Counted from the first letter of the stretch, positions 361 to 36,659 are shown. The stretch: DNA of 38,244 nt from Nitrospirota bacterium (GCA_027021335.1 JALUUO010000067.1:1-38244); one strand, 5' to 3'. Numbers and translations: made by a program. The notes: generated by a model from the letters alone, not told the origin.

Positions 361-486
361 TCTTGACAAGCCCATGAATTTTCCAGTGACTTGAAGATTT
401 AGAGCCCTTTCTATTATCTTTAACTTTGGGACATCTTGGGATTTATGTTTAAGGCTTAAGAATAATAAAGGACTGTTGGAACCGGG

Positions 487-1521
487 ATGCAGAAGCACAA
501 CTTTTTTATGAACCATCTGAAACAAGGTTCTTCCGGGTTGACACTAGCAGTTTTAATAGGAGTCTTAAGTTATGGGATCAGGGTATTAACAAAAGCTTCT
601 TTTGCCGATCCATTACTGGTGGCAATGGTTATCGGAATAGTGGTCAGAACAACAGGAAGCAGGGCCAACCTTAAGCCAGGTTTTACACTTGCCCCTATAA
701 TATTTATTCCGGCAGGCATTGTTTTTTATGCAGCCAACAATCTGAATTTTATAAAATTAGCAGAAGTCGAAACAAGTATGATAGCTCTTTTAATGGTTAT
801 CATGCTTGTTTACTTTGCAACCGTACTACTTCTTGGCAGACTGCTTGGACAGAGAAAGCAGATAACTTATTTAACCGCCACAGGCTCTGCCATATGTGGA
901 GCATCTGCCATAGCCATAACCTCGCCGGCAGTAGAAGCCGAACCGGATGATATATCAATTTCACTATTGTCTGTGGCCTTGGCAGCGCTGGTCGGTTTAT
1001 TCATAATACTCCCGTTTCTGGGCACATTGTTCGATATAACAGACAGGAGTTACGCTCTGCTTTCAGGGTCGGTTATGCAGTTTACCGGCTTTGTGAAAGT
1101 CGCCGCTCTTAAAATCCCCTTCTTGAGAAAAGAAATACCGGGAGAGGACCTGGTGTTTCTTGCTCTGTCTGTAAAAGCGGTAAGATACCTTGGTTTACTG
1201 ATAGCCATTCCGCTTTTTGCCAGTTTAACAAGAAAAAGACTCTATTTTTCATGGATACTATGGATTTTTCTTGGAGCCGGGTTATTGGGGACGTGGTGTT
1301 CTGTAGCTCATGAAAGTTTTTACAGAAACTCTATAATCCCCTTTTTAAAGCCGGTTTACAACATCTCCTGGTCGATAGCCATGGCAGCAGTGGGCTTGAA
1401 TGCAAATGTGAAGAAATTGCTGAGTGACAATGGAACCAAAGCCCTTTTAATGGCTTTTGCGGGATTCTTCACAGCGACCGCAGCATTTTTTGCAGGGTTA
1501 TACGTCATACAGGTGTTTTGA
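487..1521 (+). CDS. YeiH/UPF0324-family putative sulfate exporter-type membrane protein
   Basis: The 344-residue protein is strongly hydrophobic, with about ten predicted membrane segments. It carries the YeiH-family signature ATGSAICGASAIA near residues 130-142, followed by an acidic loop (VEAEPDDIS). The family is annotated as putative sulfate or sulfonate exporters, but the substrate is experimentally weak. The family's second conserved region (HDTSQVVAA-type) is replaced here by GSVMQFTGFVKVAALK near residues 196-211, so this is a divergent member. The ATG follows a poor ribosome site (TTGGAACCGGG). A histidine kinase gene starts 24 bases downstream and is probably co-transcribed, which suggests the transporter supplies or shares a signal. 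Confidence 0.75.
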   Translation: MQKHNFFMNHLKQGSSGLTLAVLIGVLSYGIRVLTKASFADPLLVAMVIGIVVRTTGSRANLKPGFTLAPIIFIPAGIVFYAANNLNFIKLAEVETSMIALLMVIMLVYFATVLLLGRLLGQRKQITYLTATGSAICGASAIAITSPAVEAEPDDISISLLSVALAALVGLFIILPFLGTLFDITDRSYALLSGSVMQFTGFVKVAALKIPFLRKEIPGEDLVFLALSVKAVRYLGLLIAIPLFASLTRKRLYFSWILWIFLGAGLLGTWCSVAHESFYRNSIIPFLKPVYNISWSIAMAAVGLNANVKKLLSDNGTKALLMAFAGFFTATAAFFAGLYVIQVF

Positions 1522-9787: not shown

Positions 9788-12700
9788 TTAACTGCTTATT
9801 CCTCCGAGTCTTTTTGTTGTAAAGCTTCTGACCTCACTTTCAGTCTGCTGCCCACGTCCGTCTGACGCCACGACTTTCCAGTAATATGTAGTATCAGGCT
9901 GAAGACCGGTTGCAGTATAAGAAATTGAACTTTCTGTATTTATAATAGTAGTTTTATCAGTGCCTGTTTTGTCTACACCGGTACTTCCCTTGTCCCCTCC
10001 CCCGCACTGAGTAAGAAATAAAGAGCCGGTTATCAGAAGAGCTATCAGGAGTGCATCCCTTTTTCTCTTGGGGAGCGTTCCTACAACAGCAAACCCCAGC
10101 AGAAGCATTGTGCCTGGCAGCACACCAAATGCTTTGACGTATGCGGCATTGCTGGTGGAAGTGTTATTGGAAGCTGAAGAGGCTATATCAATTACTTGAG
10201 TGTCTTCTCCCTGAAAGTCTAGACTCGTTCCATAGTACAACCTGTAATTTACTTTATCTCCGTCTTTATCTTTGGATCTCTTCCAGATAAAGTCCACGGT
10301 TGTGGCAAGATCCCTGGAGTTGGCATCAGGGCTTACAAGAAGAGGCTTTGAGGGAGGACTGTTTTCGGGAGATATGGTCATAAAACTCCAGTTGTAGTCG
10401 GCCGCAAGAGGATTTCCGGCTAAATCCCGTACTTCCGTGGTTATGGAAGCGGTACATTTAGTGCCGGCAATCAAGCCGGTATGGTTGAAGGTCACAGACG
10501 TTCCCTGGTAATTAATATCAAAGGGGATATCACTTTCATCACAGCTCAGCATTAATGTTGAAGTAGTTAAAGTGTCCGGATCCATCGGCTCTGAAAAATC
10601 AGCAACAATTGGTACGTCAAGAGGCACACTAGCATTACCTGCTACAGGAATTACAGAAACAACTGTAGGATATATCTCGTCAGTTGCTGTTCCTGTCCTG
10701 AAACTCCATGAGTAATTGTTTGCCATAGCATTGCCGGCCGGGTCGCTTACTCCGGCTGATACCAGGACCAGGTAATCCTGGTTGAACTCGAAATCGTCAG
10801 ATGGCGTAAATGTGGCGGTTTTGCCGCTGTAGGTCACTGTGCCCGGCAGATTATGTCCATCAGCGCTTATTCTGAATGTGCTGGTAGTAATAGTTGAGTC
10901 ATCAATCTCTTCCGAGAACGTAACACTTACCGATGTGTCTATTGCCACACCGCTTGCATCAGGAAGCGGACTGGTAATTGTCACTACAGGCGCGGTTGTA
11001 TCAAGAGTATCTACAGACACCGTTGATTTGGCAGACTCATTGCCAAGTGCGTCGTAAGCTGACACCTGGTATAAATAAGTAGTCTTGGCGTTCAGGCCGC
11101 TATCCGAATAACTTGTGCTTGTGGAAGTGCCTACGAGTTCTTCGTCACGAAAAATTTTGTACCCTGCCACAGCAACATTACCTTTTGGGGGCTCCCATGT
11201 GAGCTCCACGCCTGTTTCTGATACATACAAAACAATAATTAGGCCGACAGGTGCTGGCGGAGTGCCATCCGAAGATGGAGCACTTGTTGAAAAGCTCCAG
11301 CCATAGCTAGATGCCATTGGATTGCCTGCTAAGTCCTGGACGGCTGAAGATATTATGGCTAGATAGCTTTGGCCGCTTACCAGGCTCTCAGATGGCGTAA
11401 ATGTGGCGGTTTTGCCGCTATAGGTTACTGTGCCCGGCAGATCACTGCTGTTGACACTTAAGGTAAATGTAGCCGTTGTAATGGTTGAAGCATCCATCGG
11501 TTCTGAAAAAGTGACTGTTACTTCTTTATCTAATGCCACTGCACCTGAACCCGGTAAAGGACTTGTGTTGGTAACCAGAGGTGCGGTCGTGTCAAGAGTC
11601 TGTACCGGCAATGATGACGATCTGCTTGATTCATTATTGGCTGCGTCGTAGGCTGATACCTGATAGTTGTAAGTAGTTTTGGCGTTAAGGCCGGTGTCGG
11701 AGTAGGTTGTGGATGTTGTTGTGGCCACATATTCTCCATTGCGAAATACCTTATATCCTGTTACACCTACATTGTCTGTTGGGGCAACCCATGAAAGATC
11801 GATTTCCGTCTCTGAAATAGCTGTGCCGCTTAGTTTTTTCACAGTCTTAGGAGCTTCAGTATCGGCTTCGGTTGTAAAGCTCCAGGAATCGGAGGATGTT
11901 TTCGCGTTGCCTTCAAGGTCACTTATGCCTGCTGTGACTGTAGCTGTATAAGTGGTACTGTAATCAAGGCTTACGTTTGGTGTAAGTACCGCTCCGGTCT
12001 CGAAGCAGTTTATGGTTCCGGAAACACCACTTATGTAGAAAGTGCTTGAGTTTACTGTTCCACAGTTCAGGATTTCAGAGAAGCTCACACTTACGGTGGT
12101 ATTGACCAAAACACCTGTGGCGGAATCAGCAGGAACAGTGGAAGACACCGAAGGAGGCGTGACGTCCGGCGGCGGGAGCGCAGCAACAGTTGTGAAACTC
12201 CAAGAATAATCTGATGCGATCGCGTTTCCTGCAGTGTCTTTTACTCCTGTTGTAACAGTGGCGGTGTATATAGTGTTGTTATTGAGTCCTCCGGAAGGTG
12301 AATAGCTTGCAGTACGGGAGTTGGAGTCATAAGTCACGGTACCTGTGGCTCCGTTATCCAGCATAAATGTTGATGCGGCAATGGAAGATGCATCCATCGC
12401 CTCACTAAAGACAACTGTGATAGGTGTATCGATAGCAACATCAGTACTGCCATTGGCCGGATTCACAGAGGTCACTGTTGGCGCTGTTGTGTCAGAACTG
12501 CCTGTACCAGTGCTCACCACGTTTGAGTAGCCGCTCTCCAGGGTCCCCTTGTATGCCGTAACTGCAAAATAGTATACAGGTCCATCAGGTAATCCGGTTA
12601 TACTGAATGTTGTTACATTCTTAACATCAATGGGTGAAGGGCCCTGGTCTGCGCCTGTGCCGTTAAATGGAGGTCCTGCGGTATCAGCCTGGTAGTAAAT

Positions 12701-12841
12701 CTTATATCCATCCACTGCTTCGGCATTGGGATCCCATTCAATAGTCACATTAAGGGCCTCACTGCTGTTGGCTATGCATAGTAGTAGAAGAGCCGAGCAC
12801 AACCATATAAAACTTTTGATTTTGACCGAAAAGGTTTTCAT
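9788..12841 (-). CDS. Large secreted FN3 / Big_5 (SbsA Ig-like) repeat protein
   Basis: The protein has 1017 residues. A signal peptide (about 1-29, ending SSEA) is followed by FN3 (about 30-115), Big_5 modules (about 118-220 and 226-325), FN3 (328-415), Big_5 (417-518), FN3 (524-610), Big_5 (612-715 and 722-822), and a final FN3-like region (about 830-1010). The Big_5 modules repeat the motifs VTFSEPMD, GNPMAS and YSWSFTT. The last FN3 is interrupted near 891-970 by two hydrophobic segments and a lipobox-like LFLTQCGGG (Cys946). A GGAGG site precedes the ATG. Upstream is a c-di-GMP-I riboswitch with a terminator, so expression should follow the motile/sessile switch. It is probably a cell-surface adhesin or matrix protein; the ligand is unknown. 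Confidence 0.85.
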   Translation of the reverse strand: MKTFSVKIKSFIWLCSALLLLCIANSSEALNVTIEWDPNAEAVDGYKIYYQADTAGPPFNGTGADQGPSPIDVKNVTTFSITGLPDGPVYYFAVTAYKGTLESGYSNVVSTGTGSSDTTAPTVTSVNPANGSTDVAIDTPITVVFSEAMDASSIAASTFMLDNGATGTVTYDSNSRTASYSPSGGLNNNTIYTATVTTGVKDTAGNAIASDYSWSFTTVAALPPPDVTPPSVSSTVPADSATGVLVNTTVSVSFSEILNCGTVNSSTFYISGVSGTINCFETGAVLTPNVSLDYSTTYTATVTAGISDLEGNAKTSSDSWSFTTEADTEAPKTVKKLSGTAISETEIDLSWVAPTDNVGVTGYKVFRNGEYVATTTSTTYSDTGLNAKTTYNYQVSAYDAANNESSRSSSLPVQTLDTTAPLVTNTSPLPGSGAVALDKEVTVTFSEPMDASTITTATFTLSVNSSDLPGTVTYSGKTATFTPSESLVSGQSYLAIISSAVQDLAGNPMASSYGWSFSTSAPSSDGTPPAPVGLIIVLYVSETGVELTWEPPKGNVAVAGYKIFRDEELVGTSTSTSYSDSGLNAKTTYLYQVSAYDALGNESAKSTVSVDTLDTTAPVVTITSPLPDASGVAIDTSVSVTFSEEIDDSTITTSTFRISADGHNLPGTVTYSGKTATFTPSDDFEFNQDYLVLVSAGVSDPAGNAMANNYSWSFRTGTATDEIYPTVVSVIPVAGNASVPLDVPIVADFSEPMDPDTLTTSTLMLSCDESDIPFDINYQGTSVTFNHTGLIAGTKCTASITTEVRDLAGNPLAADYNWSFMTISPENSPPSKPLLVSPDANSRDLATTVDFIWKRSKDKDGDKVNYRLYYGTSLDFQGEDTQVIDIASSASNNTSTSNAAYVKAFGVLPGTMLLLGFAVVGTLPKRKRDALLIALLITGSLFLTQCGGGDKGSTGVDKTGTDKTTIINTESSISYTATGLQPDTTYYWKVVASDGRGQQTESEVRSFTTKRLGGISS
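10798..10851. repeat. Internal direct repeat, copy 1 (in Big_5 module)
   Basis: This 54-base segment is repeated at 11389-11442 with two differences and lies 591 bases (197 codons) from it. It encodes the LPGTVTYSGKTATFTPS part of a Big_5 module. It marks duplication of an FN3-plus-Big_5 unit inside the surface protein. Confidence 0.9.
11389..11442. repeat. Internal direct repeat, copy 2 (in Big_5 module)
   Basis: This is the partner of the 10798-10851 segment, identical except at two positions. It encodes the equivalent strand of the preceding Big_5 module, in the same reading frame. Confidence 0.9.
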
Positions 12842-12920
12842 CCGGCAACCTCCATAGTTACTACATTTGCTATTTCAGTGTTATTGTTCACCAATCAATA
12901 ATAATATCTAAAATTCAAAC

Positions 12921-12954
12921 AAAAAGCCGCCAGAAGCATGTTACCTCTGGCGGC
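12921..12954 (-). terminator. Intrinsic terminator, expression platform of the c-di-GMP riboswitch
   Basis: On the minus strand a 9-base stem (GCCGCCAGA at 12946-12954 with TCTGGCGGC at 12926-12934) is followed by TTTTTG. It sits between the riboswitch aptamer and the FN3/Big_5 gene. The aptamer's 3' strand runs into the left arm of this stem, so aptamer folding and terminator formation probably compete. Confidence 0.8.
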
Positions 12955-13048
12955 TCGGCGAACATAGGGCAAAATAAATCTTGTTTTCAGCCCCTTAGTC
13001 CCGTTGCTCTGCGTCACAGGGTTTCCCCTGTTTTGCTCTGAGCAGAAG
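12950..13048 (-). promoter_or_regulatory. Cyclic di-GMP-I riboswitch (GEMM-I)
   Basis: The minus strand shows the GEMM-I layout: GAGCAAAA, a CAGGG-GAAA-CCCTG hairpin with its tetraloop, the hallmark GACGCAGAGC directly after it, ACGGGACTAAGGGG, a variable loop, then TTTGCCCTATG and CGCCGAGCC. These match the conserved GAAA loop, GACGCAAAGCC block, CCTAA and ATG-containing 3' part of class I c-di-GMP aptamers as I remember them. It lies about 110 bases before the FN3/Big_5 surface protein, with an intrinsic terminator between. Whether c-di-GMP turns expression on or off cannot be read with certainty. Confidence 0.85.
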
Positions 13049-13309
13049 AGTCTCTGTTATGATCCATTTATCGGCAGACAACAGGTAAAACTTTAATTGC
13101 CGCACTGCTAGAGACAATAATAATCTTGATGATATCAAACTAGCCGCAAAGATTCAAGGCAACAGGCAAGTTGAGTTAGTAAAATCACCCCAAACCTGCC
13201 TCATAATTAGAAGGACCAAAACCAAAAAATCTAATCATATGATAATATATCCGATTGTTTTGGCTTATGAGCCTTTTGTGGAGTCAGAAAATAAGGAGGT
13301 TTGTGAAAA
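13049..13309. other. Intergenic region between the riboswitch and leuB
   Basis: This region must hold the riboswitch promoter (minus) and the leuB promoter (plus). I see an AT-rich stretch with a CCAAAAC...GTTTTGG inverted repeat near 13217-13263, and a good AAGGAGG ribosome site 12 bases before leuB. I could not assign convincing -35/-10 pairs. Confidence 0.4.
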
Positions 13310-14374
13310 ATGGGAAGAACCTATAATATTGCTGTCGTTCCAGGTGACGGCACAGGGCCGGAGGTTGTAACGGAAGGGCTTAAGGCTCTTGATTCCGCCT
13401 CGAATAAATTCGGCTTTAAGCTGGATCTTCATAGACTGGACATAGGAGGGGACAGATATCTTAAAACCGGTGAGGTTCTGCCGAAAGGAGCTGTGGATGA
13501 ACTACGGCAGTATGATGCCATATATTTAGGCGCAATCGGCCACCCGGACGTAAAACCGGGAATTCTAGAAAAAGGAATACTGCTCAAACTCCGATTCGAA
13601 CTCGACCAGTATATTAACCTAAGACCCGTTAAACTCTATCCAGGAGTGGAATGTCCTCTTAAGGACAAGCAGCCCGAAGATATAGATTTTGTGGTTATTC
13701 GTGAAAACACTGAGGGACTTTACGCTGGCGCAGGCGGATTTCTTAAAAAAGAAACGCCGGACGAAGTGGCGATACAGGAATCTATAAATACCCGAAAAGG
13801 CGTGGACAGGTGCCTGCATTACGCTTTTGATTATACAAAAAAACGTAACAGGAAAAAAAACCTCACTTTATGCGGAAAAACCAATGTGCTCACCTTCGCA
13901 TTTGACTTGTGGGAACGGGCATTTCGCGAAATGTCTCTAAAATATCCGGAAATCAAGGCTGACTACGCCCATGTTGATGCTATAACCATGTGGTTTGTAA
14001 AAAATCCGGAATGGTTTGATGTAATCGTCACAGACAATATGTTTGGCGATATCATTACCGACCTCGGTGCAATGATTCAGGGAGGAATGGGAATAGCCGC
14101 TGGTGGAAACATAAACCCAGAGGGTGTCTCCATGTTTGAACCTATAGGAGGATCTGCTCCCAAGTACAAGGGACAAAACCTTATCAACCCGTTGGCGGCG
14201 ATCTGTGCTGCCGGTATGATGCTTGATCATCTCGGAGAAGAAACCGCCGGACGAAAAATTGAACAGGCTGTCATGGATGTTACAAAAAACAGGATAAAAA
14301 GCCTTGCGGCCGGAGCAATGGGCTGTTCTACCACGGAAGTCGGCGATATGGTTGCTGAACTAGTGGCAAAGTAA
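13310..14374 (+). CDS. leuB: 3-isopropylmalate dehydrogenase family enzyme (probable LeuB)
   Basis: This 354-residue protein belongs to the isocitrate/isopropylmalate dehydrogenase family, which oxidatively decarboxylates a beta-hydroxy acid with NAD+. It has the GDGTGPEV start, the substrate block [14 protein letters not shown] with the catalytic Tyr, the Lys of LCGKTNVL, the metal-binding aspartates of [20 protein letters not shown], and the [16 protein letters not shown] adenine region. I favour leuB because asd follows directly, an order often seen in Desulfobacterota, and the length fits. A related activity (homoisocitrate or tartrate type) is possible, since the family is hard to split by eye. 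leuC and leuD are not in the window. Confidence 0.8.
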
Positions 14375-28235: not shown

Positions 28236-31200
28236 CTATTTTTTTCTTTTCAAGTCTACGCTTTTAATAACAACAAACAAACAAGGGGTGAAAAAAAGCA
28301 CATGGATGGCGGATGTGAGCATTCCACCCATGGTCGGCACAGCCATGGGCTTCATTATCTCCATACCCTGACCGCTGGAGAGCATCACGGGAAGAAGCGA
28401 AAGTATGGATGTAGAAACGGTCATGAGCTTTGGCCTCAACCGTAGGACTGCTCCATCAACAGCTGCTGTTTCAATTGCTTCCAAGCCTGTTTCTCCCTGC
28501 TCCAACCTTTCCTTAAGGGAACGATTCAAAAAGAGCACCATAATAATTCCCGTCTGGGCCGCTACTCCGTAAAGGGCGATATAGCCTATTTGCACGGCGG
28601 TGGTCAATGGATATCCCATGAGCATTTGCAGCCAGATACCACCCACAAGGGCAAAGGGTATGGATACCATAATCAAAACAGCTTCCCAGAAAGACCTGAA
28701 AGTCATTGCCAGTAGAATAACAATAGTTATCATCACAAGCGGGATAATAATAAGAAGCCTTTTCCAAACCCGGACCTGGTACATAAATTGCCCGCTCCAC
28801 TCGATGTGATAACCTTCAGGTAAGGATAGTTTCTCAGTTAGAAAACCCGAGGCTTTTTCCACATATATGGAGTCACTGACCGAGGCGGTATCAATATAAA
28901 TATATCCGGTGAGCTCTCCGTTTTCATTTCGAATCATTTCAGGTATTTTTACTGTTTCGACAGAAGCCAAATCTGAAAGAGAAACCACTTTGCCTCCTGA
29001 GGTTACTATCATAAGGTTTTTTACTTTTTCGACCGTATCGATATAATCCACTGTGTACTGAATGTTAAGTGGTACCGGTCCGGCACTGGTATTTAAGATG
29101 CTCACGTTCTCTCCTCCAAGAGCGTACTTAAGATAAAGCACGGCATCACTAACCGGTATACCATGCTCGGCCAGACGGTCATAATCAAACTTGACATCAA
29201 TAAAATACCCATCAGATATCCGTTCCGCGATAATACTTTCGGTTCCTGGAAAATCTTTGAGCAAAAACTCAATCTCTTTAGATATATCCTCTATAATCTT
29301 CAGGTCTTTACCCATCACCTTAATGCCCACAGGAGACTGAATGCCTGTTGTCTGCATATCCACTCTGGCTCTTATAGGCTGGGTCCAGGCGTTTATAAAG
29401 CCGGTCAGTTTCATCTCCTCATTCATTGCATCTATCAATTTATCCTTGGTCATTCCAGGACGCCACTGCTCCATGGGATGTAAGAGGATTGTGGTTTCCA
29501 CCATTGTAAACGGTGCAGGGTCAGTAGCTGTATCGGCTCTTCCCAATTTACCAAAAACTCTCTTGACTTCAGGAAACTTCTTCAGCTTTTTATCCATCCG
29601 GGTCAGAATCCAGCCGGCTTCTTTAGCCGGAAGCCCTGGAAGAGTAGTCGGCATATACAGAAGTGAGCCCTCTTCGAATTCCGGCATGAACGCCTTATCG
29701 AACTTCCAAAAAAAAGGAAGCGATGCCGTCATAATAAGAATGTTCACAAAAATAAAAATATATTTATGCTTAAGCGCAGCCTTAAGAAGAGGTTTGTAGA
29801 TACGAATCATAAAATAATATATTCTTCCCGGTCCTGGAAGAGGTTTGGTTCCAGATAAACTTAAGACCAATCCTGGAAGAAAGAAAAATGTAAGAACTGT
29901 AGAGAAAAACATGGCAAACGTTTTGGATAAGGCCAGAGGGTCAAACAATCGCCCCTCCTGCGCCTCTAGAAAAAATACCGGCAGGAATGAAACCATGATA
30001 ATTAAAAGTGAGTAAAATAGAGGTCTGCCCATTCCGGCGGCGGCTTTTATAATAATTTTTACTCTTTTTCTTTTTTCGTTTATCTTTCCGGCTATATTCA
30101 TCTCCGCAAGGCAATTTTCCGTCATGACAATTGCGGCGTCAGCCATTTCCCCCATGGCGAGAAACAGGCCTGCCAGAGAAAAAAGATTCAGTGTGCGTCC
30201 GGAGATGTAGACCGGAATAGAGGTAAAAACGGTTCCGAGTAAAAGTATGAGTACTGACGGCGCAGCGCTTCTTACACTGTTTAAGAAAACGCTCATAACC
30301 AGTACTACTATTAGAAGTTCATAAGCCAGAGTCTTAAAAAAAGATGATAAAGTTTTTTGTAAAAGGCCGGAGCGATCATAAACCGTTACCAGTTCTATTC
30401 CTTCCGGAAGATTATTACTCACCTGCGCCAGTTTTCTCTTGACCTTGCCCAGAAGTTCCAGAACGTTTTCATCTTGTCCGGCAATGAGAATGCCGCCAAC
30501 CACTTCCCCGTTTCCGTCTAAATCCGCTATTCCCCTTCGCAGGTCATAACCTACCTGAATATAACCTATATCTCTTATCCGAACAGGTTTACCTTCCTTG
30601 GAGTAGCCCACAAACATGGACTCCACCTGGTCAACCGATTCAAAAGAGGCTACCCCTCTTATCTGATAATCCCGGTTGGTAATCTCCAGTATTCTTCCGC
30701 CCACTTCATGAAAAGCCGCTTTTAATGCATCCACAACTTTATCCAGGGAAATGCCTGTTTCAGCCAGCAAAGGAGGATAGAGCTTTAATTGATATTGCTT
30801 TACAAGACCTCCAATGGTTGCCACTTCGGCAACACCACGCACAGACTCCAGGGCTGGTTTGATAGTGTTTTCCTGAATCAAACGTAATTCGCGTAAATCA
30901 TAAAGTCTGTCTTTATCCGACAATGCGTATTGAAAAATCCATCCCATGGCTCCCGCATCAGGCGCTACTTCAATTTCCGCGTCTGCCGGAAGCTTGTTGC
31001 GTATGGCGCTTAAGTTATCCATAACACTGCGGCGCACGGACTTTAAATCGCTTTTGTTCTCAATAATCACATAAACAAATGAATACCCCAGGTATGATAC
31101 GCCTCTTACTGTTCTGACTCCGGCCAATCCCCTCAGAGAACTGATAATGGGAGAGGTTATTTGCGATTCAAGCAGCTGCGGGCTTCTCTGCCACTTGGAA

Positions 31201-31349
31201 TAAATAATGATCTGCGGATCGGAAATGTCCGGGACGGCATCCAGGGGAGAACGTACAATAGAGTAAAGGCTAAGGCCGATAGCAAGAAAAATTATTATAA
31301 TAACGGCTTTGCGCTGCTGAATAGAAAAGTTAATTACTGACTCGATCAT
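28236..31349 (-). CDS. CusA/CzcA-family heavy-metal efflux RND transporter
   Basis: This 1037-residue inner-membrane RND pump has 12 TM helices and two large periplasmic loops. It starts MIESVINFSIQQRKAVII and has the HME-RND block PDISDPQIIIYSKWQ. TM4 has GEMADAAIVMTEN, keeping the Asp and Glu of the proton relay of CusA. The three methionines that bind Cu(I)/Ag(I) in E. coli CusA (M573, M623, M672, from memory) align with Met566 (LLYMPTTLPG), Met616 (APFTMVETT) and Met665 (RARVDMQTTG), with identical spacing of 50 and 49. So the pump is predicted to handle Cu(I)/Ag(I)-like ions. Yet it is the last gene of a unit headed by a cobalamin riboswitch. Its ATG overlaps the adaptor's stop by 4 bases. 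Confidence 0.92.
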   Translation of the reverse strand: MIESVINFSIQQRKAVIIIIFLAIGLSLYSIVRSPLDAVPDISDPQIIIYSKWQRSPQLLESQITSPIISSLRGLAGVRTVRGVSYLGYSFVYVIIENKSDLKSVRRSVMDNLSAIRNKLPADAEIEVAPDAGAMGWIFQYALSDKDRLYDLRELRLIQENTIKPALESVRGVAEVATIGGLVKQYQLKLYPPLLAETGISLDKVVDALKAAFHEVGGRILEITNRDYQIRGVASFESVDQVESMFVGYSKEGKPVRIRDIGYIQVGYDLRRGIADLDGNGEVVGGILIAGQDENVLELLGKVKRKLAQVSNNLPEGIELVTVYDRSGLLQKTLSSFFKTLAYELLIVVLVMSVFLNSVRSAAPSVLILLLGTVFTSIPVYISGRTLNLFSLAGLFLAMGEMADAAIVMTENCLAEMNIAGKINEKRKRVKIIIKAAAGMGRPLFYSLLIIMVSFLPVFFLEAQEGRLFDPLALSKTFAMFFSTVLTFFFLPGLVLSLSGTKPLPGPGRIYYFMIRIYKPLLKAALKHKYIFIFVNILIMTASLPFFWKFDKAFMPEFEEGSLLYMPTTLPGLPAKEAGWILTRMDKKLKKFPEVKRVFGKLGRADTATDPAPFTMVETTILLHPMEQWRPGMTKDKLIDAMNEEMKLTGFINAWTQPIRARVDMQTTGIQSPVGIKVMGKDLKIIEDISKEIEFLLKDFPGTESIIAERISDGYFIDVKFDYDRLAEHGIPVSDAVLYLKYALGGENVSILNTSAGPVPLNIQYTVDYIDTVEKVKNLMIVTSGGKVVSLSDLASVETVKIPEMIRNENGELTGYIYIDTASVSDSIYVEKASGFLTEKLSLPEGYHIEWSGQFMYQVRVWKRLLIIIPLVMITIVILLAMTFRSFWEAVLIMVSIPFALVGGIWLQMLMGYPLTTAVQIGYIALYGVAAQTGIIMVLFLNRSLKERLEQGETGLEAIETAAVDGAVLRLRPKLMTVSTSILSLLPVMLSSGQGMEIMKPMAVPTMGGMLTSAIHVLFFTPCLFVVIKSVDLKRKK

Positions 31350-32152
31350 TGTAAATCCGGCGACTGAACCTGTTGTTTCTGGAGCTTATATTGCGCATCC
31401 AGAAAAAAACTTCCAAATGTGACTACCTCATCTCCTAAATAGATTCCATCTATTACTCTGGTGTAAAGTTCTCCACGCATGCCTGTGGAAATCGTTACAG
31501 GAATATATTCGTAATCATCATTTCCCGTGACATATACAACACTGCCGGAGTCTTCCTCGATAATAGCTTCGTTAGGAATAGATGGATAATTCCCCATATC
31601 AACTATAATTTCCATAATGTAATAATCAGATCCCTCGTACCATGGGTCTGATATGTCTGTTTTCACGGTAGTCATACCTTTTCCCGGAATCAAACCTATA
31701 ACCTTACCTTGCAGCACCGGCTCTCTTCCAACCAGTGGGAAGACACGAACCTGTTGACCAAGCTTTATCAATTCAGCATTCTTCCCATAAACTTTCCCAT
31801 GCACTTGTTTACTGAAAGGATCTATTGCACCTGCTGTCCTTATCCATTTTTCTATTTTTTCGATCGAAACCTTTGCCTTGGTGAGAGTTATTTCATCCGC
31901 CTGTTTTTCCGAAAGCCTGACAACACCTTTTTTTGCAGAAATTTTTTTCACAAGATCCATGCCGCAAACAGGACAATCTCCCATGGTTTTAGAAACGTAG
32001 TTCGGATGCATAGGACATATATACTCCGCCGCTTTAATATCTTTTCCGTTTTTTTTGGAAGCCGACTCTTGCTCTACATATAAGAGCAAAATTAAGGCGG
32101 CAAAAACAGTCAGCCCTATAACAACCATCACTCTTTTAATAAAAATATTCAT
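31346..32152 (-). CDS. CusB-like efflux adaptor lacking the lipoyl/helical-hairpin part
   Basis: The protein has 268 residues against about 400-500 for CusB proteins. The N-terminal anchor (about 8-27) is followed by a heavy-metal-binding domain YICPMHPNYV...GDCPVCGMDLVKK (about 44-70). The membrane-proximal start (VRLSEKQADEITLTKAKV) and WIRTAGAIDPFSKQVHGKVYG then jump directly to the beta-barrel (LIKLGQQVRVF...LQGKVIGLIPGKG). The barrel and C-terminal domains (PNEAIIEEDSGSVVYV, LGDEVVTFGSFFLDAQYKL) are complete. The region that normally carries the lipoyl halves and alpha-hairpin, about 130 residues, is missing while the frame is intact. Such an adaptor could not reach a TolC-type channel in the usual way. 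The ATG follows a weak GAGTG site. Confidence 0.82.
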   Translation of the reverse strand: MNIFIKRVMVVIGLTVFAALILLLYVEQESASKKNGKDIKAAEYICPMHPNYVSKTMGDCPVCGMDLVKKISAKKGVVRLSEKQADEITLTKAKVSIEKIEKWIRTAGAIDPFSKQVHGKVYGKNAELIKLGQQVRVFPLVGREPVLQGKVIGLIPGKGMTTVKTDISDPWYEGSDYYIMEIIVDMGNYPSIPNEAIIEEDSGSVVYVTGNDDYEYIPVTISTGMRGELYTRVIDGIYLGDEVVTFGSFFLDAQYKLQKQQVQSPDLQ

Positions 32153-32197
32153 AAAATCACTCGTCTGTCTTCTTTACATTTTAATAAAACAGGTTCC

Positions 32198-32250
32198 TGC
32201 AGGATGGGCAGGATAAAGCGAGTTCGTATTCCACCCATCCTGCCGGATTT
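32198..32250 (-). promoter_or_regulatory. Hairpin between propeller and adaptor genes
   Basis: CAGGATGGG and CCCATCCTG form a 9-base inverted repeat with a loop of about 27 bases in the 108-base spacer before the adaptor gene. No T-run follows directly, so it may be an RNA processing or stabilising element rather than a terminator. Confidence 0.4.
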
Positions 32251-32260
32251 ATTCCGCCAA

Positions 32261-33439
32261 CTAGTGACAGTAGTTATCCCTGCCTTCAAGCACAAAAGAT
32301 CCCCAGGGATATAGACCGACGTCAGCAACACGTTCAAATTCATTTGTTTTGCCGTCAATAATGTAAAGTGAGTGATCCGTGGCGCTGGTTAAATACATCT
32401 TCTCTCCGTCTGCGCTTGTAGCCGCGGTTTGCAGCTCCAGGTTGGTTCCGATCTTAATCCGTCCTGCCGGTTTAAGTTTCTTTAGATCATACACATAAAC
32501 AAAACTGCTGGAATTACTGATAACAAAAGCCTTGTTATGAGAGAAATTTACTCCGACCATATCAGGTCCTGCTTCTAACGTGGCAACGACTTTATTTTTC
32601 TTGATGTCAATAATAGATATGGTTTCATCTCCGTTATTGGGTACAACCATTTTAGTTCCATCCGAACTTGGATAAGCCCGCCAGGGATCAGCTCCCACCT
32701 TAATAACCTTAACAATCTTATCCTCTCTGGTATCAATTACGCCTACAACACCTAAATCTCCGTCTGCGGCATAAAGATATCTTCCATCCCTTGTGATAGA
32801 AGCATTGGATATGCCCCTTATATCACTCAAGTATTTTTTGGGATCGAGTTTACTGACGCCAGGCACTGCTCTTATTCTTATTTTCTTTAATAATTCATGC
32901 CTTTTAACATCTATCACACCCACCCAGTGAGCTCCGTAGTTTGCAACATAGGCTTTTGAACCGTCAGGCAGAAAAGTAATATTTAACGGCTCAGCAAATC
33001 CTCTTAAATTTTTTATGAGTTTTAAGGAAACCAGGTCAATAATCGAAACAGAATCACCATCAGGGTTGCCCTGGTAGTAAAAGCGGCTGTCAGGTGTAAC
33101 GGCCAGATGTTCCGGTGCAATATCAACAGGTATTGTTTTAATCAGTTTCATAGTTGCCACATCAATAATGTAAGCCTTATTTGCCCTTGTTCCTCCTGTT
33201 ACCACCCGACGTCCATCAGGAGTCATTGCGGCCATATGCGGATTAACCCACTTACCCAAAAACACCCTTCCAACTATCTTCTTGGTCTTTAAATCCATAA
33301 AACTGATATCGTTGGAATCACGATTAACAATCACACATACGGACCTTGGATCTTTTATTACAACTTCTTCTCCAAAAGATTTCTTTAAAGGCTGACAAAA
33401 AAATAAAACAGTAAACAGAAACAGAACAACCTTCTTCAT
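32261..33439 (-). CDS. Secreted YVTN-family beta-propeller protein
   Basis: This 392-residue protein has a signal peptide (about 1-23, MKKVVLFLFTVLFFCQPL...SFG) and about seven repeats with the propeller pattern, e.g. DISFMDLKTKKIVGRVFLG, KAYIIDVATMKLIKTIPVD, SVSIIDLVSLKLIKNLRG and TISIIDIKKNKVVATLEAG. These YVTN/NHL-like propellers resemble the cytochrome cd1 d1-domain fold but usually bind proteins or metals. It ends NYCH, a possible metal ligand pair. The ATG at 33439 follows a perfect AAGGAGG; an in-frame ATG further upstream would destroy the signal peptide. It sits between the porin-like gene and the adaptor, so it is likely a periplasmic link in the same system. Confidence 0.85.
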   Translation of the reverse strand: MKKVVLFLFTVLFFCQPLKKSFGEEVVIKDPRSVCVIVNRDSNDISFMDLKTKKIVGRVFLGKWVNPHMAAMTPDGRRVVTGGTRANKAYIIDVATMKLIKTIPVDIAPEHLAVTPDSRFYYQGNPDGDSVSIIDLVSLKLIKNLRGFAEPLNITFLPDGSKAYVANYGAHWVGVIDVKRHELLKKIRIRAVPGVSKLDPKKYLSDIRGISNASITRDGRYLYAADGDLGVVGVIDTREDKIVKVIKVGADPWRAYPSSDGTKMVVPNNGDETISIIDIKKNKVVATLEAGPDMVGVNFSHNKAFVISNSSSFVYVYDLKKLKPAGRIKIGTNLELQTAATSADGEKMYLTSATDHSLYIIDGKTNEFERVADVGLYPWGSFVLEGRDNYCH

Positions 33440-33508
33440 TTCAATCCTCCTTAATTGATAAATTTCATCAGTTATAGTTTTATTTAAACAACACAAGTAG
33501 GTAAAAAA

Positions 33509-34900
33509 TTAAAAATCAACCTGCACCCTAAGCCCCGGAAGAACGTAGCTCTTCCTTGCACCACCGACATTAGAGTCAGCCAGGTACTGCAGATGAAACG
33601 AAGTCTTCAAGTTATCGGTAAGGAAGAGATTATAATATCCTTCTAAAAGTGTTTCATCTTCGCCTGATGCCATATCCGTAGACTGGAAACCTATTGCCCA
33701 TGCATCCTGAAGGCCTATAACATAAGGGGTTTTAAACTGGACACCTCCACTATAAAAATAGTCATCCCGTTTGAAATCTTTTGAAGTAAATTGTTGCCCG
33801 AATCTGCCAAACAATGTTATTGAGGGGGTTAACTTCTGATCAATACTCGTGCCCCAGGCCATGTTTTCACGCTTTGTGTTTTCGTTAAACCTGTACCATA
33901 TTCTGTAATGCCCTTCAGGCAGGCCTCCAAAATGCGACAGGTAGTCGATTTCGACGACGGAATAATTCTTTTCCGTCATATTGTTTTCCGCGTTTTCTCC
34001 GCGTTGTATACCTGCTTTAAATACTATTCCTACCTTGGGATCGAAAACCGCTGTCAACCCGGCCCCATTATTGGCAGGCGCCGCTAGGAGCGGGTTATTG
34101 ACAAGCGTATCTGTAATAAACTGTGTTGTTTCATCATTTGCAACCGTGTTGGAATCAAAATAGTTGGTAAGATCAAGGATACCGCCGGTAACAGTCAAAC
34201 GTTGACCGAGCAGCTCTGTACTCAACCAAGCTTCGCGTAAATTCATCTCCCTGCCATCTATGTCTCTTGCATCCTTTCGCCTCGCGTTGTCACTGTTTAG
34301 TCCGGAAATGTTATCTATCAGCTTATCCGGCGAGTATCCTCCTATAGCTTCTATGTCTATAAAAAACATCGTATAAAGTGCAGGTTTTGCGATAAAGAAA
34401 ACATCCATGGATCCTACACCGAACAGGTCACCATCAGCCTCATTGCTGTTTCCTTTTAATCGCACGGCTTCCTGAGCCGTCGCTGTTCCGCTGACACCTA
34501 TGCTAACCCCTTTTTTTGCTTCACCTGCCAGGACCTCCTCAATCTTTTCACTGATTGTCTGTCTCCTGTATACTTTCTCCCTCTGATACGTAAAACTCTT
34601 TACCAGGGGCAGTCCGTCCAGCGGACACTTCCCTTCACGTGCTCCGTCATATTCATGACCGTTATCACAGACCGATATCTCTTTTTGCTTGACAAGCAGT
34701 TCCGGCTCGGAAAGAACCGCTCTGGATTCCAGTTCACGTAACCGCTCATCCAAATCCCTGGTCTTTTCCTCCAACAAAAGAAATTTACTGTCATCTTTAC
34801 TGCCCTCCTTGCCACCACCTTCAGCAAAAACTAAAGATGGAAACAAAAAACAGAATATAAACAAAGCAGGTAGACAGCGTGTAACAAATGGCGCAATCAT
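33509..34900 (-). CDS. Outer-membrane porin-like beta-barrel with N-terminal coiled coil and metal-binding-like motif
   Basis: The protein has 463 residues. The signal peptide (about 1-26, ending LVFA) is followed by a short coiled coil (about 36-64, LLEEKTRDLDERLRELESRA) and a Cys/His segment VCDNGHEYDGAREGKCPLDG (about 76-95). This resembles a diverged heavy-metal-binding domain (C-x-x-x-H...CPxxG). The rest alternates aromatic beta strands and ends in VDF, the C-terminal Phe needed for Bam insertion. The barrel resembles carbohydrate-selective porins (OprB-like), but the substrate is unknown. GGAGAG precedes the ATG. It is the first gene after cobalamin riboswitch 1 and its terminator, so it is expected to be expressed when B12 is low. 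Confidence 0.75.
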   Translation of the reverse strand: MIAPFVTRCLPALFIFCFLFPSLVFAEGGGKEGSKDDSKFLLLEEKTRDLDERLRELESRAVLSEPELLVKQKEISVCDNGHEYDGAREGKCPLDGLPLVKSFTYQREKVYRRQTISEKIEEVLAGEAKKGVSIGVSGTATAQEAVRLKGNSNEADGDLFGVGSMDVFFIAKPALYTMFFIDIEAIGGYSPDKLIDNISGLNSDNARRKDARDIDGREMNLREAWLSTELLGQRLTVTGGILDLTNYFDSNTVANDETTQFITDTLVNNPLLAAPANNGAGLTAVFDPKVGIVFKAGIQRGENAENNMTEKNYSVVEIDYLSHFGGLPEGHYRIWYRFNENTKRENMAWGTSIDQKLTPSITLFGRFGQQFTSKDFKRDDYFYSGGVQFKTPYVIGLQDAWAIGFQSTDMASGEDETLLEGYYNLFLTDNLKTSFHLQYLADSNVGGARKSYVLPGLRVQVDF

Positions 34901-34930
34901 TTTTCTCTCCTTTATATTAGATTAAAAATT

Positions 34931-34949
34931 AAGGAGATAATATCTCCTT
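34931..34949. promoter_or_regulatory. Perfect palindrome before the porin-like gene
   Basis: AAGGAGATA-A-TATCTCCTT is a 9-base perfect inverted repeat 30 bases upstream of the porin-like gene, between the terminator and the start codon. It contains a Shine-Dalgarno-like core in both orientations. It could be an operator or a decoy ribosome site; function is unknown. Confidence 0.4.
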
Positions 34950-34965
34950 TCTTATCTGTTTATCA

Positions 34966-35005
34966 CAAAAAAATCCCCGGACCTTACTTGAGAGGTTCGG
35001 GGATT
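34966..35005 (-). terminator. Intrinsic terminator of cobalamin riboswitch 1
   Basis: On the minus strand AATCCCCGAACCT pairs with AGGTCCGGGGATT (one mismatch) around an 8-base loop, followed by TTTTTTT. It lies between the aptamer and the porin-like gene, and should be formed when cobalamin is bound. Confidence 0.88.
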
Positions 35006-35091
35006 CCGTTTTTATCCACGATTCAAATATACCCTCCTCCTTTATCCACGAAGAGTTGTTGAGCCTAAAAAAGCTCATTTTGGGTTTATAC

Positions 35092-35265
35092 ACTTGCAGG
35101 CAGGTCTTCTGGCTTCCGGATCATTCTACTTGCCGCGCCTTCCCGTCCAAACATAGGACAGTGGGTTTTCTACTTGCGGTTTTCGTCCCCGGTTACAGCG
35201 GCGGGTCCGCAACGGTTTTTCACCGTTTTCCCTTTTTAACAAGCCTTTTGGGGCTTCCTGCAGAT
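35092..35265 (-). promoter_or_regulatory. Cobalamin riboswitch 1
   Basis: The minus strand carries the conserved B12-box elements in order: GGTGAAAAACCGTTGCGGAC, CCGCCGCTGTAACCGGGGAC, CCACTGTCC, GGGAAGGCGCGGCAAG and GCCAGAAGACCTGCCTGC. GCAGG/CCTGC can close P1. A terminator follows about 90 bases downstream, then the porin/propeller/adaptor/pump unit. Upstream only a -10-like TATATAAA near 35270 is visible, so transcription may start here or read through from the cbtB unit. Confidence 0.95.
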
Positions 35266-35320
35266 GAGTTTTATATACTTCTAATTCTTATTTATGCTTA
35301 GAGTCTTTCTCATATCTTCT

Positions 35321-35746
35321 TTAAATATTCTTTAAATTCTTTGAAAAAGAAATCCAAAAAAAACCGAAAATCAAACCAAGAAGAATACTCAAGAGAAAAC
35401 CCTGTAAATGCTGACTGCCTTCCATATGGTATCTATCCGGCTTTAAAATATGTAATAACAAGCCTCCAGTAAAAAATAAAAACCAGATACCAACAGACAC
35501 GGTTATCGACTGAGCCATAATTGGTTGAAACGGAAGTTTATTTTTGGATGCTTCCAGAAATGCACCAAGTAAAAGACCAAAACCAGCTCCGCCTACAATA
35601 AAGACGAAAATATCATTGAAAAAACTAAAGTCAAAAGCAAAAAGTTGCGTAAATGAAGAGATAATTAAAACTAAAACCCCCCATATCATGCCTGACATGG
35701 TTCCCACGAAAATACCTCTAAGTAAATTAGTCGACCTTTGGCTCAC
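35321..35746 (-). CDS. Unrecognised 4-TM membrane protein downstream of cbtB
   Basis: This 141-residue protein has about four membrane helices (GIFVGTMSGMIWGVLVLIIS, IFVFIVGGAGFGLLLGAFLE, ITVSVGIWFLFFTGGLLLHI, LQGFLLSILLGLIFGFFWIS). A His-bearing loop HILKPDRYHMEGSQHLQ joins the last two. I do not recognise the family. Its position after cbtB suggests it takes the place of CbtA, but it is shorter (CbtA is about 230 residues) and clear CbtA motifs are not seen. I chose GTG at 35746, preceded by GAGG, because the more upstream ATG at 35794 falls inside the hairpin after cbtB. Function is inferred from context only: cobalt or metal uptake. Confidence 0.65.
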   Translation of the reverse strand: MSQRSTNLLRGIFVGTMSGMIWGVLVLIISSFTQLFAFDFSFFNDIFVFIVGGAGFGLLLGAFLEASKNKLPFQPIMAQSITVSVGIWFLFFTGGLLLHILKPDRYHMEGSQHLQGFLLSILLGLIFGFFWISFSKNLKNI

Positions 35747-35773
35747 TTTATTATCCTCACATTGCAAAATAAG

Positions 35774-35808
35774 CTGTCTCCCCTGATAGGACAAGCCTGG
35801 GGAGACAG
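35774..35808 (-). terminator. Strong hairpin between cbtB and the 4-TM gene
   Basis: CTGTCTCCCC and GGGGAGACAG form a perfect 10-base stem with a 15-base loop, 8 bases after the cbtB stop, followed by CTTATTTTG. The T-run is interrupted, so it may be a leaky terminator or attenuator that lowers expression of the second gene, or a 3' stabiliser of the cbtB message. Confidence 0.6.
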
Positions 35809-35815
35809 ATGATTA

Positions 35816-36007
35816 TTAGTGGCATTGAATGCCGATTGAATGTCTAAAATCATGAAACATATCGTGTACACCAGGCATTGCGGCATCAACCCCATAAACT
35901 ACGATTATCATAAAAACTGTCATAAAAATCGCAATCATCAAACCAGTAACAGCAAGTAACGAGTCGGTCTTACCTGAATTTCCTGTCATTAAAGCTTCTT
36001 CTTGCAT
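35816..36007 (-). CDS. cbtB: CbtB-family cobalt transporter subunit
   Basis: CbtB proteins are small, single-TM, B12-regulated partners in predicted cobalt uptake. This 63-residue protein has one membrane helix (about 17-39, LLAVTGLMIAIFMTVFMIIVVYG) and the family's His-rich C-terminus MPGVHDMFHDFRHSIGIQCH, the likely metal-binding tail. A perfect AGGAGGTGA precedes the ATG. It is directly behind cobalamin riboswitch 2 and its terminator, which is the classic setting for this family. The normal partner, CbtA, is replaced here by an unrecognised 4-TM protein. Confidence 0.85.
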   Translation of the reverse strand: MQEEALMTGNSGKTDSLLAVTGLMIAIFMTVFMIIVVYGVDAAMPGVHDMFHDFRHSIGIQCH

Positions 36008-36041: not shown

Positions 36042-36079
36042 AAAAAAATCCCCAAACTCAGACCATGAGCTTGGGGATT
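36042..36079 (-). terminator. Intrinsic terminator of cobalamin riboswitch 2
   Basis: On the minus strand AATCCCCAAGCTCA pairs with TGAGTTTGGGGATT (one G-T pair) around TGGTC, followed by TTTTTTT. Its stem base matches that of the terminator at 34966-35005. It lies between the aptamer and cbtB. Confidence 0.9.
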
Positions 36080-36149
36080 GTCCCTTTTTTTAATCCACAA
36101 ACGTTTTTAGCAATCTTGGTTCCACGAAGATCGCAACAATTCTAATATC

Positions 36150-36310
36150 TACAGGCAGGTCTTCTGGTTTTCAGATCAATCTACTTGCCACGCCTTCCCA
36201 CCCAGTTTTAACTGAATAGTGACTTTTTGCGGCTTTCGTCCCTGATTACAGCGGCGGGCCCACTCCAGATTTTCACTGGATTCCCTATTATTCTTTTGCA
36301 AGAACCTGTG
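36150..36310 (-). promoter_or_regulatory. Cobalamin riboswitch 2
   Basis: The minus strand shows the ordered B12 aptamer elements: CCAGTGAAAATCTGGAGTGG, GCCCGCCGCTGTAATCAGGG, GACGAAAGCCGCAAAAAGTC, ACTATTCAGT, GGGAAGGCGTGGCAAG and CCAGAAGACCTGCCTGT. ACAGGT/ACCTGC-type pairing closes P1. It is a close relative of riboswitch 1, about 1.05 kb away. Confidence 0.95.
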
Positions 36311-36318
36311 ATTTTTAA

Positions 36319-36348
36319 AGTATAGTTGCCCGTTGATAAAAATGTCAA
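36319..36348 (-). promoter_or_regulatory. Sigma70 promoter for the riboswitch 2 / cbtB unit
   Basis: On the minus strand a perfect TTGACA (36343-36348) and TATACT (36319-36324) are 18 bases apart. The expected start site is just before the P1 helix of riboswitch 2, which supports both calls. Confidence 0.75.
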
Positions 36349-36479: not shown

Positions 36480-36659
36480 ATGAATATAAATGAAGAGGAT
36501 AGAAAATCTTGTAAGATGTGCGGAAAAAGGCTCATAGAAAAAGAAATGTTCGGAAAAATTGAAAACGAAGGCAAAATTTACTATGCCTGTTGTCAAATAT
36601 GTTATGAGCTGCTTACCGGAAAACCTTTTAGTGGTAATCCTGAAATTAAGTTCAAATAA
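36480..36659 (+). CDS. Small Cys-rich protein, TRASH/zinc-ribbon-like
   Basis: This 59-residue protein begins MNINEEDRKSCKMCGKRLIE and has the pattern CxxC (residues 11-14), then GKIYYACCQICYELL with CCxxC (about 37-41). A CxxC followed by an aromatic GKxYY and CCxxC resembles the TRASH metal-binding knuckle found in heavy-metal sensors and chaperones. AAGGAG lies 11 bases upstream of the ATG. It is divergent from the cobalamin-regulated cbtB unit and may bind a metal. No closer identification is possible by eye. Confidence 0.65.
   Translation: MNINEEDRKSCKMCGKRLIEKEMFGKIENEGKIYYACCQICYELLTGKPFSGNPEIKFK

Follow-up and report, generated by a model that had tools for sequence, protein, structure and literature searches.

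A cobalamin riboswitch-linked operon for an OprB-type porin, a secreted propeller, a shortened CusB-like adaptor, and a CusA-type pump in a Nitrospirota bacterium, with a possible role in cobalt supply

Organization of the locus

The DNA considered here is a 38,244 nt stretch from a Nitrospirota bacterium (GCA_027021335.1, JALUUO010000067.1:1-38244), referred to as a whole as the window. On its minus strand, a cobalamin (B12) riboswitch aptamer (riboswitch 2, 35082..35276; RF00174, 107 bits, E 5e-26, against a curated cutoff of 31.5 bits) and an intrinsic terminator (34972..35005; a stem with a T7 tail, -17.7 kcal/mol) precede four genes of the same strand. These encode an OprB-type outer-membrane porin (33509..34900; PF04966, E 2.5e-7, over the cutoff); a secreted YVTN beta-propeller (32261..33496, with a likely start at ATG 33439; TIGR02276, 1.4e-34); a CusB-like adaptor of 268 aa (31346..32152; HMBD domain PF19335, 4.3e-12); and a CusA-type pump of the heavy-metal efflux (HME) group of the resistance-nodulation-division (RND) family (28236..31349; TIGR00914, 830.7 bits vs. 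a cutoff of 701.45). The genes are separated by gaps of 69 and 108 nt and then overlap by 4 nt. An original prediction, made by a model from the sequence alone, had described this arrangement, and it is confirmed here, as is the remark that no TolC-type factor accompanies the four genes: no OEP/TolC gene is in the open reading frame (ORF) lists for the window, and an OEP gene is found in a CusCBA set elsewhere in the genome.

The original prediction, correct as to the four genes, missed what lies upstream of them. About 1 kb upstream of riboswitch 2, and also on the minus strand, are a further aptamer (riboswitch 1, 36137..36324; RF00174, 105.4 bits, E 1.4e-25) with its own terminator (36047..36079; 14 bp stem, T7 tail, -21.4 kcal/mol) and a gene for CbtB, a predicted cobalt transporter subunit (35816..36007; PF09489, E 6.5e-8, 33.1 bits vs. 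a cutoff of 27). Directly 3′ of CbtB, at the usual position of CbtA, is an ORF for a 157-aa membrane protein (35321..35794). Its identification as CbtA is unsupported, since a genome-wide search with PF09490 gave nothing at E<=10; it has a weak ECF-type match (0.054). A promoter-like site (36319..36348, minus strand; TTGACA-18-TATACT, 11 of 12 positions, a consensus match only) is just 5′ of riboswitch 1. An alignment of the two leaders extends across a large part of both and takes in the terminators. The stretch from the 157-aa ORF to riboswitch 2 showed no strong promoter, so riboswitch 2 may act on read-through from riboswitch 1. On the opposite strand beside this cobalt locus, a 59-aa protein (36480-36659, plus strand) has a weak TRASH-like metal-finger match (E 0.0016).

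Conservation and riboswitch linkage

Further loci were gathered by scanning genome contigs with a propeller alignment and by searching genomes of Nitrospinota, Lindowbacteria, and Acidobacteriota with profiles; their taxon names are the labels of metagenome-assembled genomes (MAGs), with labels and binning taken at face value. Both the gene order and its coupling to a riboswitch, which the original prediction had proposed as checks, are found well beyond the window. The porin–propeller–adaptor–pump order recurs, whole or interrupted only where a contig stops, in Nitrospirota, Nitrospinota, Lindowbacteria, Acidobacteriota, and a Spirochaetia-labelled MAG. It is present in the last of these (locus L067), in Lindowbacteria (L070, L147), and in Acidobacteriota (L148, L149); in a Nitrospinaceae genome (L064), with the pump cut by the contig end; and in Nitrospina (L066), where the remainder of the pump probably lies on a separate contig (L094). 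Three contigs stop inside the adaptor (L065, L068, L150), and the genomes of the first two have a system-type pump at a contig end elsewhere; two more (L151 and the Gammaproteobacteria-labelled L069) run from porin through propeller to the contig end. With CusA as query, the genome-contig scan found no relative. The short adaptor, searched against about 300 genomes of the phylum, returned only ordinary CusB/HlyD-type matches, suggesting that the system is rare and patchy and lies outside the vertical core.

RF00174 matches above the cutoff stand directly 5′ of the first gene at 17 of the 24 propeller loci whose upstream sequence is long enough (a manual count, with the Manganitrophus plasmids described below taken as one and L072 left out as operon-internal). 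At an eighteenth, L067, there is a match to the adenosylcobalamin riboswitch family RF01482 just under the cutoff (46.6 vs. 50 bits, E 1.7e-5). At the aptamer density of the window genome, about 0.0007 aptamers per locus would be expected by chance, related loci not being independent of one another; the link between riboswitch and module is not a matter of chance. T-tailed terminators lie at a nearly constant distance, 68-108 nt 3′ of the aptamer, at 12 of these loci, and in the CbtB leader as well. At the remaining aptamer loci, 30-254 nt separate aptamer and gene and contain no terminator with a T-run, which would fit translational control there.

None of the six loci from Acidobacteriota and Lindowbacteria has a detectable aptamer; the B12 link is therefore common rather than universal. 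Two of these riboswitch-free loci adjoin genes for cobalt/nickel transporters: L070 has CbiM-CbiQ-ABC genes divergently upstream, and L149 has a HupE/UreJ gene 3′ of the pump on the same strand; and at L148, heavy-metal two-component genes (11400-13579, below curated cutoffs) adjoin the operon.

The porin and propeller are also found without the pump. On three Candidatus Manganitrophus plasmids, an RF00174 aptamer, a porin (35-37% identical to that of the window), and a propeller (44%) come directly after a cobalamin biosynthesis operon and are not followed by a pump. At L071, two tandem RF00174 aptamers (1096-1384 and 1509-1677) precede one porin-propeller operon; at L072 and L076 the propeller is within cob/cbi operons; and at most of the Nitrospinota loci found, a propeller 34-39% identical to that of the window follows an RF00174 aptamer and precedes cbiX, cbiC, and cbiD. 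Because porin and propeller occur in this way in B12-synthesis operons, the propeller, often with the porin, appears to be the core of the system, and the pump looks like an add-on. The same distribution does not bear out the proposal in the original prediction that porin and propeller replace the TolC channel. The aptamer-propeller-cbiX-cbiC-cbiD operon is present in several Nitrospinota genomes (loci L129-L137, for example L129:5874-10278); in it a periplasmic-type protein heads a cytoplasmic B12 pathway, directly before the cobaltochelatase gene.

The porin and the propeller

The porin consists of a signal peptide, a coiled coil, a domain with a Cys motif (C78, C92), and a barrel of about 16 strands, according to an AlphaFold2 (AF2) model of modest confidence (pLDDT 62). 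The top Foldseek match for this model is OprB (4gey, E 3.4e-11). The N-terminal metal-binding-like motif of the original prediction is real in the window protein; the orthologs from Acidobacteriota and Gammaproteobacteria have lost it. Distant relatives of the porin in further genomes of the class (L009-L020) adjoin DUF4198 and CbiM genes, or FeoA-type genes, and the family may serve several metal uptake systems. The CbiM-DUF4198 neighborhood recalls the ECF (energy-coupling factor) systems NikKLMQO and CbiMNQO, which, unlike the window system, have neither an RND pump nor a propeller.

All 16 propeller homologs in an alignment share H87, H130, and a C-terminal YCH (numbering from 33496). The window protein ends in NYCH, and CbtB ends in ...IQCH, so both have a C-terminal Cys-His. 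The propeller also matches DUF5074 (9.8e-8); 3DSM is not among the best 60 PDB matches listed for its profile, and no lipobox was seen by eye.

A beta-propeller under a B12 riboswitch with an outer-membrane partner is also a feature of the Bacteroides BtuB-BtuG system, in which BtuG caps BtuB (PMC6143338, PMC10404256). The propeller described here could conceivably be a remote analogue of BtuG for cobamides or cobinamide, which its outer-membrane partner would admit, with the pump handling some other cargo; this is an unlikely explanation, if the likeliest of the three alternatives weighed here. Besides the likeness to BtuG itself, the DUF5074 match points in this direction, as do some Nitrospinota propellers that adjoin a TonB receptor with its own riboswitch; but the one such receptor examined, that of L131, scores as a siderophore receptor (TIGR01783, over the cutoff) and not as BtuB, and the usual partner of the propeller is a 16-stranded OprB-type porin, a pore too narrow to admit a corrinoid. 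BtuG, moreover, has been reported from Bacteroidetes only (PMC6143338), and is described as a surface lipoprotein on a TonB receptor, whereas here the propeller is soluble and secreted, lacks a visible lipobox, is not found with BtuB, has cobalt genes near it, and in Nitrospinota directly precedes the cobaltochelatase gene cbiX. The BtuB-like receptor of the window genome itself is with BtuFCD-like genes on a different contig. The Nitrospinota TonB receptors under their own RF00174 aptamers, with a PepSY_TM-like protein behind (L129:2720-4849, L131:7997-11994, L133:2014-5926), are candidates for cobaltophore uptake.

The shortened adaptor and the pump

An alignment to four full-length CusB proteins shows that the short adaptors have lost one continuous segment, which contains both lipoyl halves and the hairpin; the original prediction had recognized the absence of the hairpin, and the loss extends to the lipoyl domain. 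The segment is missing in every ortholog read, including those of L147-L149 (the latter by reading). An AF2 model of the window adaptor (pLDDT 72) contains only a transmembrane (TM) helix, a small metal domain, and beta domains, with no hairpin, and its best Foldseek matches are CusB and then BesA. A sequencing or frameshift artefact is ruled out by the same deletion in orthologs from several phyla. An N-terminal CPMH...CxxCGM domain is carried by the adaptors of the window, L067, L070, and L147; Nitrospinota adaptors lack this HMBD metal domain and end in a natural HHHH tail (L064:3535-4248, L066:6039-6752).

Lacking both lipoyl domain and hairpin, the adaptor could not form a TolC conduit in the usual way. 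The absence of a hairpin would not alone exclude a duct, since BesA of the Borrelia burgdorferi BesABC system is, like the window adaptor, naturally hairpin-less, yet retains a lipoyl domain and has the TolC homolog BesC as its partner (PMC3807786). The window adaptor is without the lipoyl domain as well, and no gene for such a duct is near it. It displays what remains of an adaptor of this kind once both parts are removed; we know of no earlier case in which both are missing.

The pump is homologous to E. coli CusA along its whole length (about 785 bits), and the adaptor to the membrane-proximal and beta-barrel parts of CusB. In a tree, ten system pumps group together as a single clade (100/100), whose sister is a CusA paired with a full-length HMBD adaptor. 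All system pumps with sequence there keep M573, M623, E625, and M672, the residues that bind Cu(I) in the CusA of E. coli (PMC8092243). In the proton relay, D405 and K984 are likewise kept and E939 is replaced by Q in all with sequence there; A402 is replaced by E throughout the clade, giving an extra Glu in TM4 that is clade-specific in this sample; and the transmembrane Met relay has lost M391. The E939Q replacement is not unique to the system, being found also in an Acidobacteriota CusA with a full-length adaptor. E. coli CusCBA thus shares the pump, its copper site, and part of the proton relay with the system described here; it differs in its CusC/TolC gene, its complete adaptor, the unaltered residues E939, A402, and M391, and the absence of B12 riboswitch control and of porin and propeller partners.

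The intact Cu(I) site, the CusA ancestry of the clade, the HMBD on the adaptor, and the two-component genes beside L148 would all suit tolerance to copper and silver, or to metals generally, placed under B12 control in some lineages, with porin and propeller helping to sense or expel Cu(I). This seems unlikely as well, and is ranked below corrinoid capture: the pump-less porin and propeller are found inside B12-synthesis operons, the genome has a full CusCBA elsewhere, and the system has neither an outer-membrane exit duct nor the adaptor domain to dock one.

Export of Co(II) by the pump was rejected, since the site residues differ from those of CzcA-type pumps. Could the pump instead move Co(II) between porin and propeller and the inner membrane, as an RND exporter reversed or re-used for energized import? 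Its sharing an operon and a riboswitch with porin and propeller would be explained, and the HMBD or His4 tail of the adaptor, the changed proton relay (A402E, E939Q), and the loss of M391 could be accommodated. Heavy-metal RND pumps known so far export, however, the Met-rich site is wrong for Co(II), and the two-gene form works without a pump; this explanation is considered improbable, and the least likely of the three.

B12 and copper genes elsewhere in the genome

The genome has six RF00174 matches in total, including the two in the window. The others precede a CobU-CobT-CobS operon, a BtuB-TonB-BtuF-BtuD-BtuC-like operon, and, as one of a divergent pair 120 nt apart (G000 contig 29:133-313, minus strand, and 434-606, plus strand), a gene for the anaerobic ribonucleotide reductase NrdD. 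These other operons have known roles, leaving that of the window as the single B12-switched operon without one. CbiD and a cbiA-cbiX/cbiC-CbiM-CbiN-CbiQ-CbiO operon (some names assigned by reading the sequence) are present, and by this gene content the organism is predicted to make B12. A classic CusC(OEP)-CusB(626 aa)-CusA set is also encoded. Within the window itself, a c-di-GMP-I riboswitch (12946-13047, minus strand; 61.3 bits) precedes a gene for a 1017-aa secreted repeat protein (12841-9788).

Possible function

The four-gene unit and its association with B12 and cobalt are both well supported. A role in cobalt supply is indicated by B12-switched genes that lie beside cobalt transporters and a cobaltochelatase gene in a B12-producing genome, and we put at about one in two (0.5) the probability that the whole module is an envelope system for cobalt acquisition switched off by B12. 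Judging by the aptamers and terminators, both riboswitches would let transcription through when adenosylcobalamin is scarce. The OprB-type porin, with its periplasmic Cys-motif head, would then admit Co(II); the propeller, through its invariant His residues and C-terminal Cys-His, would retain it in the periplasm for transfer to inner-membrane transporters, which in this genome would be CbtB, together with the membrane protein encoded next to it, and CbiMNQO. In the four-gene form, the CusA-derived pump and the truncated metal-binding adaptor would probably strip Cu(I) from the periplasm or from cobalt carriers, making cobalt delivery selective. Cu(I) outcompetes Co(II) at most protein sites, following the Irving-Williams order. 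For a pump of Cu(I)-exporter descent that keeps its site, and for which TolC docking is impossible in any known way, removal of Cu(I) is the simplest role that fits. The cobalt cargo, its hand-over, and the substrate, direction, and role of the pump are all inferred.

Several observations weigh against cobalt acquisition. The aptamer is missing at the six Acidobacteriota and Lindowbacteria loci, and the neighborhood of L148 would fit a role in metal stress there; the Cys motif of the porin is lost in some orthologs; secretion of the propeller leaves an indirect role possible; a Cu(I)-type pump site would not by itself fit cobalt; and with a classic CusCBA already in the genome, the presence of another Cu(I) pump calls for an explanation. 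The original prediction of a B12-responsive metal system is partly supported: the conserved gene order, the riboswitch link, and the B12 and cobalt context stand; the link does not extend to all loci, and the pump keeps a Cu(I)-type site, not the residues of Co(II) exporters.

The regulon logic is that of CbtAB and other predicted B12-regulated cobalt transporters, CbtB itself being under the neighboring riboswitch; no porin-propeller-RND set is among those predicted (PMC2667541). No B12-controlled RND or porin-propeller system is described in the literature searched, which covered few subscription papers. There is a fair chance that this is a new kind of machine, beyond the HME-RND and B12-regulated cobalt systems. 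Its more specific form, in which a TonB-independent porin and a metallochaperone propeller supply cobalt for B12, together with an RND pump that no longer reaches the outer membrane and acts as a periplasmic proofreader or uptake energizer, is put forward tentatively, as a possibility with the odds somewhat against it. The pump would be, to our knowledge, the first of the heavy-metal RND group with a tie to a nutrient-acquisition regulon.

The passage of cobalt across the outer membrane is largely an open question: as of a 2021 review, no cobalt-specific outer-membrane receptor had been confirmed (PMC7689651). The B12-switched porin-propeller pair, with a propeller also found beside cobaltochelatase genes, is a concrete candidate, and in the four-gene form metal selectivity, by which cobalt would be obtained and copper would not, becomes testable within one operon.

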